Assembly: GCA_947625015.1 (NCBI GenBank)
Contig: CANQMR010000004.1
Location: forward strand, 62,001-126,000
DNA from: an uncultured Lachnospiraceae bacterium
GTDB taxonomy: Bacteria > Bacillota > Clostridia > Lachnospirales > Lachnospiraceae
Length of the DNA stretch: 64,000 nucleotides
Reading direction: 5' to 3'
Of this stretch, positions 11,035-55,051 are shown one piece after another; positions within the stretch are counted from its first letter, which is position 1; each line of letters starts with the position of its first letter. The notes under the pieces were generated by a model. That model was given only the letters and a program-made list of their open reading frames with translations. It was not told where the DNA came from and searched no databases. The position numbers were made by a program, and so were the translations under genes.

Positions 11035-11658
11035 ATGGAAAAAGAAGAATTGGTAGAGGCCATTGTAAAGTTAGAGTGGGATGCCTTTGATAAAGTGGAG
11101 AATAGAGGTGGCAGGGCGGAGTGCCAGGATAACTGGAATACGTTTTCCCTTATGCGGAAAAGCCAGTATCTGGCATGGCCAAAGGAACTTCTTGAGAGCT
11201 TTTACGAGGATTTTGTCGAGGCCAACCAGAAGGGCTGGAACCTGATTACGGAAAAATATGGACGCATGATGGAATCCACCGTCCCGGAGGAATACGAGGC
11301 AATCAAAGAACAGCTTCCTCCCTGTCCATCACAGAAACGGGCAATCATCAATCAGATTGCGGAGATTCAGGTACAGTGGATGGAGGATTTTGCAAAGGAT
11401 TATCCCCATATGGCCATGAATGCCCGGAGTATCCGTTCCGCTGAAGATACGCCCAGTAACACCTCCTATGAGACCTACTTAAAGGGCGAACTCATGACCT
11501 ACTCTGACCGCACCTTAAGCCTTTATGGCCGGTGGATTGTCGACTTAAACCAAAAGGACGAAAACCTTGCCCGCATAATCATGACAAACACAGCGCTCCT
11601 TTACGGCTACGCCTCCTTACAGGCCGCCGAAGAAGCCCTTAGCAGCCAACCCCAATAA
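11035..11658 (+). CDS. DUF4125 family protein
   Basis: This 207-residue soluble protein starts after an AGAAGGAA ribosome site. It begins MEKEELVEAIVKLEWDAFDKVENRGGRAECQDNW and continues with WNTFSLMRKSQYLAWP and SYETYLKGELMTYSDRTLSLYGRW, which I recognise as DUF4125, an uncharacterised family frequent in Clostridia. It is acidic and mostly helical, with no signal peptide or membrane segment. It follows the TPR-DUF4037 gene by 85 bp; that pairing suggests a common task, which is inference. The gene ends 23 bp before the giant palindrome, whose long stem may double as its terminator. Confidence 0.8.
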   Translation: MEKEELVEAIVKLEWDAFDKVENRGGRAECQDNWNTFSLMRKSQYLAWPKELLESFYEDFVEANQKGWNLITEKYGRMMESTVPEEYEAIKEQLPPCPSQKRAIINQIAEIQVQWMEDFAKDYPHMAMNARSIRSAEDTPSNTSYETYLKGELMTYSDRTLSLYGRWIVDLNQKDENLARIIMTNTALLYGYASLQAAEEALSSQPQ

Positions 11659-11681: not shown

Positions 11682-12176
11682 TTTCCGTTTCCCGGCGGCG
11701 CCTTTTCTCTTATCCGCCATATGATTAGTAAATTACCGCCCGAGGGTAATCCTTATCCCAATTTTCCCGACACGCGGTTTTTTAGAAATCCACTGCCGGG
11801 CCCGCCTGCATATTGCACGCGCGAAGAAGTGTCTGAGCACCGGGTTTGGGGTGCTGGGCAAACATTTTGCAGCCACGCTTGCGCTCTGTTGAAAACGCAG
11901 CGGTACATAAGCGAAGGCCCTGTTTATTATCTGCTGAATAACAGATTAAGAAAGGGCCTTCGCAAGTACCGACGTTTTCAAAGGGGCTGCAAATGTTTCC
12001 CAGTCACCCAAACCCGGTGCGAGTTCTTCGTAAGCGCGTGCAATCTAATATGCAGGCGGGTTCGGCAGATGGATTTCTTAAAACCGATGGCAGTGCGGGA
12101 AAATGGGAAAGGATTATCCCGGGGCGGTTTTATAAAAAGGGTGGATAAGAGAAAGGGCGCCGCCGGGAAACGGAAA
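11682..12176 (+). repeat. Giant quasi-palindromic element, copy 1
   Basis: This ~495-nt region folds on itself almost end to end. The basal stem pairs 11682-11702 with 12156-12176 (21 bp, perfect) and continues 11703-11718 with 12140-12155 (only G-U exceptions). Inner arms pair across the middle: GAAAACGCAGCGGTAC with GTACCGACGTTTTC, and the apical stem GCGAAGGCCCT (11911-11921) with AGGGCCTTCGC (11953-11963) around a 31-nt loop. A second copy, in inverse orientation, is at 54571-55051. The core (about 11731-12130) is closely similar in both: 11850-11924 differs at only two positions from its counterpart. An open frame of 153 codons across it is a by-product of the palindrome. No transposase is present; it could be a MITE-like element or a structured RNA. 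Confidence 0.9.
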
Positions 12177-12302: not shown

Positions 12303-12866
12303 ATGGCAACAATTTCAGCAGGTGATTTTAGAAATGGCGTAACCATTGAATTTGAAGGGAATATTTATCAGATTGTAGAATTTCAGCATGTTAAGCCGGG
12401 TAAAGGCGCAGCCTTTGTCCGTACCAAGTTAAAGAATATTGTGAACGGCGGCGTGGTGGAGAAGACGTTCCGTCCTACAGAGAAATGTGAGACGGCTCAC
12501 ATTGACCGGAAGAATATGCAGTATCTTTATCAGGATGGAGATTTGTACTACTTTATGGACAATGATACCTATGACCAGATTGCTTTAGGTAAGGATGTGG
12601 TTGGCGATTCCCTTAAATTTGTTAAGGAGAATGAGAATGTGAAAGTGGTTTCCCATGCGGGCAACGTATTTGCCATTGAGCCGGAGATTACCGTTGTCTT
12701 AGAGGTAACGGAGTGCGAACCGGGCGTTAAGGGCAATACGGCAACCGGAGCAACCAAGCCATGTACTGTGGAGACCGGAGCAACCCTTAATGTGCCGCTG
12801 TTTGTCAATCAGGGAGATAAGATTTCCATTGATACAAGGACTGGGGAGTATCTTTCAAGAGCATAA
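12303..12866 (+). CDS. efp: Translation elongation factor P
   Basis: This 187-residue EF-P relieves ribosome stalling at polyproline stretches. The ATG at 12303 follows AAGGAGG; an in-frame extension to 12228 lacks a ribosome site. Three OB-type domains of normal length are present. The loop [15 protein letters not shown] carries Lys34, the position modified in many bacteria; no epmA/epmB or deoxyhypusine-type modification gene is in the window, so its modification state is open. The C-terminal signature [20 protein letters not shown] is intact. It precedes spoIIIAA, as in other sporulating Firmicutes. Confidence 0.97.
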
Positions 12867-52743: not shown

Positions 52744-52815
52744 TGCACCAGAGAAGAGTCGAACTTCCTCACATGGCTCCGGAGGCCATTGCTCTATCCG
52801 TTGAGCTACTGGTGC
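52744..52815 (-). tRNA. tRNA-Arg (anticodon CCG)
   Basis: On the minus strand, the 72-nt cloverleaf starts GCACCAG and ends CTGGTGC plus discriminator A, a 7-bp acceptor stem. The D-arm is GCTC...GAGC; the anticodon arm ATGGC-CTCCGGA-GCCAT gives anticodon CCG, reading CGG (Arg). The T-loop is TTCGACT. CCA is not encoded, and a T-run follows directly as terminator. Confidence 0.93.
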
Positions 52816-54570: not shown

Positions 54571-55051
54571 TCTGCGGATATTTTTCTGTTATCTTTAAGT
54601 TTTTATTTGTGAAACCGCCGCCGGATAATCCTTTCCCATTTTCCCGCACTGCCATCGGTTTTAAGAAATCCTGCTGCCGGACCCTCCTGCATATTAGATT
54701 GCACGTGCTTACGAAGAACTCGCGCCGGGAAGGGGTGGCTGGGAAACATTTGCAGCCCCTTTGAAAACGCCGGTACTTGCGAAGGCCCTTTGACATATCT
54801 GCCATTAAGTATATGATGAACAGGGCCTTCGCTTATGTACCGCTGCGTTTTCGACAGAGCGCAAGCGTGGCTGCATAATGTTTGCCCAGCACCCTAAACC
54901 CGGCGCTCAAACACTTCTTCGCACGTGCAATATGCAGGAGCGTCCGGCAGTGGATTTCTAAAAAACCGCGTGTCGGGAAAATCGGGATAAGGATTACCTT
55001 GCGGCGGTAATTCACGAATATTCCGGAAGATAACAGAAAAATATCCGCAGA
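54571..55051 (-). repeat. Giant quasi-palindromic element, copy 2
   Basis: This copy matches copy 1 (11682-12176) in reverse orientation. The basal stem is a perfect 25-bp pairing of 54571-54595 with 55027-55051. The apical stem GCGAAGGCCCT (54779-54789) pairs with AGGGCCTTCGC (54822-54832). The arms are closely similar to copy 1 (54819-54893 differs at two positions), but the 32-nt apical loop is different in sequence. The basal stem differs in sequence from copy 1 while remaining paired (TCTCTTATC/GATAAGAGA against TCTGTTATC/GATAACAGA). Open frames on the minus strand here (54527-54805, 54894-55244) are palindrome by-products. It separates the divergent Lrp and DUF975 genes. Confidence 0.9.

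Follow-up and report, generated by a model that had tools for sequence, protein, structure and literature searches.

Two long palindromic elements lie in the window, by which we mean the whole 64,000-nucleotide stretch of an uncultured Lachnospiraceae genome that was analysed. Copy 1 is located between a gene encoding a DUF4125 protein and efp, the gene for elongation factor P. Copy 2 is located between an AsnC-type regulator gene and a DUF975 gene (Table 1). A tRNA gene (52744-52815, minus strand; Rfam RF00005, 61.9 bits) lies about 1.8 kb from copy 2, and no link between the two was seen.

A first-pass annotation of this DNA had described each copy as folding almost end to end into one hairpin, and our folding agrees. 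Copy 1 folds at -326.7 kcal/mol, compared to -165.6 (sd 6.6) for 100 dinucleotide shuffles (z -24.4). The minus strand of copy 2 folds at -279.6, compared to -144.7 (sd 6.5) in shuffles (z -20.9). In copy 1 the outermost arms pair with each other, and pairing continues up to the apical loop. When the two copies are aligned, they are in opposite orientation and differ in their apical loops, as the annotation had also stated. Its description of the arms as closely similar is accurate for the inner arms but not for the outer arms, which are partly copy-specific, each side matching its partner inside one copy. The outer arms of the long window copies are matched, but the exact terminus is not common to copies. 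No direct repeats that could represent a target-site duplication were recognised flanking either window copy, and a CGTCC foot was not seen at either.

Table 1. Positions in the window of the two palindromic elements, their parts and the genes next to copy 1.
Feature	Position	Strand	Basis
Copy 1, palindromic element of ~495 bp	11682..12176		Fold z -24.4; multi-copy in genome
Outer left arm of copy 1, partly copy-specific sequence	11683..11718		Pairs with 12140-12175; comparison with other copies
Outer right arm of copy 1	12140..12175		Pairs with 11683-11718
Conserved apical core of copy 1, R1 positions 1-96	11866..11994	- (strand with GNRA-type loop)	93.2 bits
GNRA-type mini-hairpin of copy 1, loop GCAA on minus strand	11875..11886	-	Sequence; family conservation
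Variable apical loop of copy 1, approximate limits	11921..11953		Sequence and fold; differs in copy 2
Copy 2, palindromic element of ~481 bp, inverse to copy 1	54571..55051		Fold z -20.9; alignment
Conserved apical core of copy 2, R1 positions 1-96	54748..54877	+	92.9 bits
GNRA-type mini-hairpin of copy 2, loop GCAA	54857..54868	+	Sequence; family conservation
DUF4125 gene, upstream neighbour of copy 1 (context)	11035..11658	+	ORF; Pfam 286.6 bits
Elongation factor P gene efp, downstream neighbour of copy 1 (context)	12303..12866	+	Pfam EFP_N, EFP, Elong-fact-P_C

Distribution and arrangement of the element

We aligned 22 cores, wrote their structure by hand and built a covariance model, R1. 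At E up to 1, R1 has exactly two matches in the window, which are copies 1 and 2. The element is thus present twice in the window, as first annotated, but the genome holds many more copies. In this genome (G000; 2.82 Mb in 47 contigs) BLAST finds 29 loci plus fragments, and R1 finds 54 matches.

The first-pass annotation had proposed a covariance-model search of Lachnospiraceae and had said that a lack of any further copy would count against its reading. Absence of further copies is ruled out by the 54 matches in G000 and by matches in all 26 genomes of the same genus, which carry 1 to 80 each with up to 143 candidates scored per genome. Across the family, 107 of 299 sampled genomes are positive at E 1e-6 or better, with up to 12 candidates scored per genome. 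The order sample yielded 29 positives among 295 genomes and the class sample 7 among 291, every one of them our own genome or a member of the same family; since filters were tighter for surveys of more than 40 genomes and the training sequences of R1 all came from the genus, these counts may overlook distant members. An exact pattern was found in 25 stretches of named genomes, titled Lachnospiraceae, Clostridiales, Clostridium or Clostridia MAGs. Viral contigs gave 0 matches to one exact pattern.

The close relative G023 has a copy number similar to that of G000, mostly at orthologous sites. In eight other species of the genus, BLAST matched only 33 to 56 nt within positions 186-244 of the query. 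Among the loci viewed, these short matches are hairpin tips on unrelated, well-paired stems.

Copies were found at or near contig ends of G000 (C4:1-71, C23:75-136, C32:28153-28307, C35:147-481 and C40:18206-18601). Therefore, the element probably breaks assemblies, and its copy number is a lower bound. Several G023 loci have flanks that match two G000 copies each, as after rearrangement between copies (L039 versus L004/L005, L051 versus L007/L008, and L049 versus L011/L008). When the orientation of the core to neighbouring long ORFs was scored (n=122), 51 cores were antisense to both, 31 sense, 27 divergent and 13 convergent, a mild bias.

The arrangement and the stem feet vary between lineages. 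Core-bearing hairpins occur in tandem in G159 (L203-L205, on C21 and C59), at spacings of 164 and 187 bp. Cores also form inverted pairs or clusters (L196 and L197 in G155, L146 in G318), which resemble the REP dimer arrangement. At L190-L194 (G316), L203-L205 (G159), L208 (G255) and L050 (G005), stems unrelated in sequence have the same foot motifs, CAG on the 5' side and CGTCC on the 3' side. G000 itself contains a second, short-stem subfamily (L295, L296 and L297, on C3, C15 and C30) with GCGAAAC-like ends and GGTATT adjoining the core.

The element resembles REP/BIME repeats of the GTAG and CGTC families (PMC3733652) in being palindromic and dispersed and in its occasional tandem or inverted arrangement, and the CGTCC stem foot of some of its lineages recalls tagged REPs. 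REPs are described there as 20-40 bp long with stems of 5-13 bp. In contrast, the element is 140 to 500 nt long (~490 bp in the window), has a structured core and shows no association with Y1 transposases, which go with REPs of the GTAG type.

Structure of the apical core

The conserved unit of the family is an apical core of ~96 nt that forms a three-way junction with a GNRA-type mini-hairpin. An outer helix is followed by a short single-stranded segment on the 5' side, a helix containing an internal loop of CC/GCTG type, a tip that varies, and a 2-bp mini-hairpin on the 3' side. This folded core is the most conserved part of the element, and stem sequence, stem length and element ends vary by lineage.

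The core alignment contains 107 matches, 84 of them distinct, from 91 loci, and 85.7% of its cells are paired. Two-sided changes are present at 29 of 30 core pairs. The covariation score is 0.486, compared to 0.169 when shuffled and 0.077-0.137 with slid partners, in an alignment fitted to R1, which favours this result. The tip helix is the weakest in the core (61% paired). The mini-hairpin loop is of GNRA type in 83 of the 84 sequences (GAAA 32, GCAA 27, GAGA 19, GGGA 2, GCGA 2, GGAA 1, and AAAA 1), and the pair that closes it is C-G in 70 sequences and T-A in the other 14, intermediates being absent. In the core helices, 35 G-T pairs compare to 22 A-C pairs, a slight wobble preference that speaks only weakly for RNA.

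The loop pattern is that of RNA GNRA loops, which suggests that the core strand is the minus strand for copy 1 and the plus strand for copy 2. Because of this pattern, we consider RNA about twice as probable as single-stranded DNA for the folded form of the core.

At the gathering score, Rfam 15 identifies only a tRNA in the window and nothing over the element, which bears out the earlier statement that no large bacterial RNA matches. A permissive Rfam 15 search of six loci (E up to 5) gave five weak matches, none of them over a core. In the literature searched, which included few subscription papers, no description of the core or the element was found.

Stems and centre inversion

The stems behave differently from an RNA helix. 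At 73 of 76 loci (the other three lacking the motif), the paired arms contain 14843 Watson-Crick, 340 G-T, 370 A-C and 1435 other pairs, in alignments that extend somewhat into the flanks. Between orthologous arms, we observed 31 double changes from one Watson-Crick pair to another, and single changes led to G-T 37 times and to A-C 47 times. G-T and A-C counts taken from RNA folds of the orthologs were set aside, as they are biased towards G-T. Double changes of any kind numbered 81, compared to ~9 expected if changes were independent, and many are of the kind that inversion makes. The stems are palindromes of Watson-Crick pairs that show no preference for wobble. Of the first-pass option of a structured RNA, the covarying apical core with its GNRA-type loop stands, and the long stem, which behaves as a DNA palindrome, does not.

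The centre of the element also changes orientation. Of 21 ortholog pairs tried, 20 were readable, and in 7 of these the core is inverted with respect to the flanking DNA. The copy beside efp has opposite orientations in G000 and G023. Some of these flips could be assembly errors, since the genomes are drafts and the arms are long; the flipped copy L075 lies at a contig end. At one locus, L073 (G023:C81:1429-1746), the tip is lost and one sequence is present on both arms beside the gap, which looks like arm conversion.

Template switching between inverted repeats is known to have two products, homogenised arms and an inverted spacer (PMC8604942, PMC8794818). Our element displays the same arm homogenisation and spacer inversion between orthologous copies. 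The cases in those texts are short repeats in yeast genes, and RNA genes, whereas ours is a multi-copy element with arms of up to ~200 nt. The pattern of complementary arms and flipped centres is as replication template switching would give, and we infer that mechanism from the published work. Template switching alone, with no selection at the RNA level, can produce covariation in the long helices, which counts against the explanation favoured below.

A different explanation places the function in the DNA itself: a nucleoid or replication protein would bind the hairpin or cruciform, which would serve chromosome architecture whether or not it is transcribed. Stems that behave as DNA palindromes with no preference for wobble, nearly free orientation with flips, and genomic rearrangements between copies are all consistent with such a site. 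However, the core loop follows the pattern of RNA GNRA loops, and patchy occurrence in the family is odd for an architecture site. We find this explanation highly doubtful.

A cis effect of the element on neighbouring genes is unlikely because the centre flips. The core more probably acts in trans, or helps the element to spread.

Transposon ends and the divergence of the core

Empty sites in relatives, a comparison that the first-pass annotation had recommended, were examined at efp. We matched efp in 24 of the 26 genus genomes, with different upstream genes in some, and scanned 23 loci, one per genome, leaving aside two partial loci in G006. The core is present in 2 of the 23, G000 and G023, and absent from the other 21. 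The many copies and the presence or absence beside efp show that the element was inserted and that the family is dispersed. The idea that the outer arms are inverted duplications of flanking DNA was unsupported, as empty efp sites show neither arm at the 8 loci viewed; this is a weak test, since the intergenic DNA has diverged.

Transposon ends were recognised in a related subfamily. G013 contains near-identical core-bearing copies of ~211 bp with TAGGNRNTTGCGAAAC ends, a pattern counted 58 times, compared to 0 for its reversal. Direct repeats of 9-13 bp, read by eye, are present at 7 of 11 complete G013 copies. The same ends together with the core are also found in other genera (G200, G587 and G106), and a script found direct repeats of at least 10 bp at 6 of 13 loci with paired ends. 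The short-stem copies L295-L297 of G000 retain GCGAAAC-like ends, but the long window copies do not. The TTGCGAAAC ends are absent from the long window copies, and the only exact match in the window lies elsewhere.

In G002, a pair of such ends 1.75 kb apart led to an insertion sequence (IS) with TAGGNRNTTGCGAAAC-type ends and an intact transposase gene. This IS is 1753 bp long in G002 and 1770 bp, with an 11-bp repeat, in G008. Its 491-aa protein has a DUF772 domain and a DDE match below its cut-off. The nearest NCBIfam model is IS1182, and we call the IS only IS1182-like, since it scores 77.5 bits against a cut-off of 270; its ends match the related subfamily and not the window copies. Relatives of this transposase occur in 9 of the 26 genus genomes searched, and none was found in G000, G013 or G023.

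The core model found no match within the IS. Core-less derivatives with IS ends also exist, namely a 63-bp element in G013 (G013:C180:32844-32906, with TAGG...TTGCGAAA ends) that adjoins a core-bearing copy, and two loci in G091. These results indicate that the transposase need not use the core.

Other candidate mobilisers were rejected. The Y1/RAYT domain PF01797 occurs in 56 of the 107 genomes that have the core and in 118 of the 192 that do not (P = 0.14), is absent from G000, and strong Y1 matches are slightly negatively associated with the core (P = 0.047). We clustered 1355 stop-to-stop ORFs from around the loci and found no transposase, reverse transcriptase or recombinase common to them in the 25 largest clusters, inspected by eye without a domain search. 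Twenty stretches at solo ends in G013 yielded no acceptable autonomous element. L228 is the only G013 end pair that encloses a long ORF; its left end does not start with TAGG, and the ORF has no Pfam match. A second IS candidate, G159:C25, has other ends and a Mu-type C-terminal domain and was set aside.

The element resembles bacterial IS-derived MITEs, which are described (PMC10969869) as likewise short, non-coding, intergenic, multi-copy inverted repeats that form a stable stem-loop if transcribed. Its length of ~500 bp and its 29 loci plus fragments in G000 agree with MITE size and copy number, no conserved gene was seen near the cores (ORF clusters, by eye), and the related subfamily has ends in common with a full-length IS. 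Unlike the MITEs of that text, the element's best-conserved part is a covarying central core, common to lineages with different ends and stems, its arms reach ~200 nt and its centres flip. The first-pass annotation had said that a match to a described IS-derived MITE would count against its reading. None matching the window element was found in the literature searched, which included few subscription papers, but the genomes did yield an IS whose ends are those of a related subfamily that carries the core. Its option of a non-autonomous mobile element is supported by the dispersed copies, by presence and absence beside efp, and by the transposon ends and direct repeats of the related subfamily.

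We then compared divergence within the element at 20 orthologous sites. Changed positions amount to 12 of 1096 in the core (1.1%), 170 of 5353 in the stems (3.2%) and 88 of 1040 in the apical loop (8.5%). The flanking DNA of 19 of these ortholog pairs differs at 1577 of 46036 positions (3.4%). The core diverges less than the stems (P = 5e-5) and less than the flanks (P = 2e-6), with sites that are not fully independent. At the secY-adk site, the element differs at 1 of 178 positions between G005 and G013, where the flanks are 84-87% identical in local alignments. G004 also has an element downstream of secY, with different arms that mismatch G005 at 12 of 29 and 19 of 34 positions. The core of this G004 element has 10 changed positions out of 80 and a further 11 gap columns, concentrated in the tip.

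Because the core diverges less than stems and flanks and the secY element is nearly unchanged, the resident copies appear constrained. The low core divergence could instead stem from exchange between copies, without selection, and recent transfer is a possible alternative for the similarity at the secY site. Sequence exchange does occur between copies, as three G023 copies have one apical loop in common.

Exchange of this kind bears on another account, in which the MITE family is an ordinary one and its core a functionless hitch-hiker kept uniform by descent and by exchange between copies. MITE ends and direct repeats in one subfamily, and the existence of core-less derivatives, are in agreement with it. 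However, the core occurs in about a third of the sampled genera while stems and ends differ, and the two-sided changes in the 2-bp helix (C-G 70, T-A 14, no intermediates) do not come from long-arm switching. This account seems to us quite unlikely.

Constraint on resident copies could also reflect domestication. The element would have arrived by transposition and become a structured RNA of the host in many copies, which would now be kept since the core RNA acts in trans, for example by binding a host protein. The lower divergence of the core at orthologous sites in two genomes with no relative of the transposase found, and the near identity of the secY-site element between G005 and G013, argue for this. 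Against it, species of one genus carry anywhere from 1 to 80 copies and about two thirds of the sampled family genomes have no match, so the RNA is not generally needed; its orientation to genes is also nearly free, and it flips. We regard domestication as unlikely.

A bolder proposal is of a selfish palindrome, spread across Lachnospiraceae, whose cargo is a structured RNA of a new class: a three-way junction with a GNRA mini-hairpin, under selection in resident copies, acting whichever way it faces neighbouring genes and passing between unrelated transposon ends. The folded core would then be the persistent unit, rather than the transposon. We advance this proposal tentatively, as a possibility that we would not yet prefer.

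The explanation that we favour, and hold to be probably correct, treats the window hairpins as resident copies of a Lachnospiraceae element that is palindromic, of MITE type and non-autonomous, has a structured core, and would be moved in trans, reshaped by template switching and bound at its core by a protein. The mobilising enzyme would be the DDE-type transposase encoded by an IS1182-like IS, acting on common terminal repeats and leaving direct repeats of ~11 bp; shared ends and repeats document this for the related subfamily, and the window's own copies presumably moved in the same way. DNA replication that switches template between the arms would keep them complementary and flip the centre. 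Binding of the folded single strand by a protein, useful to the element or to its host, may be what preserves the core.

A mobile palindrome is a known kind of element. The covarying central core, common to genera with differing ends and stems, is a variant not found in Rfam 15 or the literature searched. It is present in about a third of the sampled family genomes, at up to 80 matches per genome, yet has no Rfam family. In the element's many natural copies, the evolution of long inverted repeats through arm conversion and inversion can be followed in parallel. The element sits at contig ends and at genomic rearrangements, and its covarying core offers a partner to seek.
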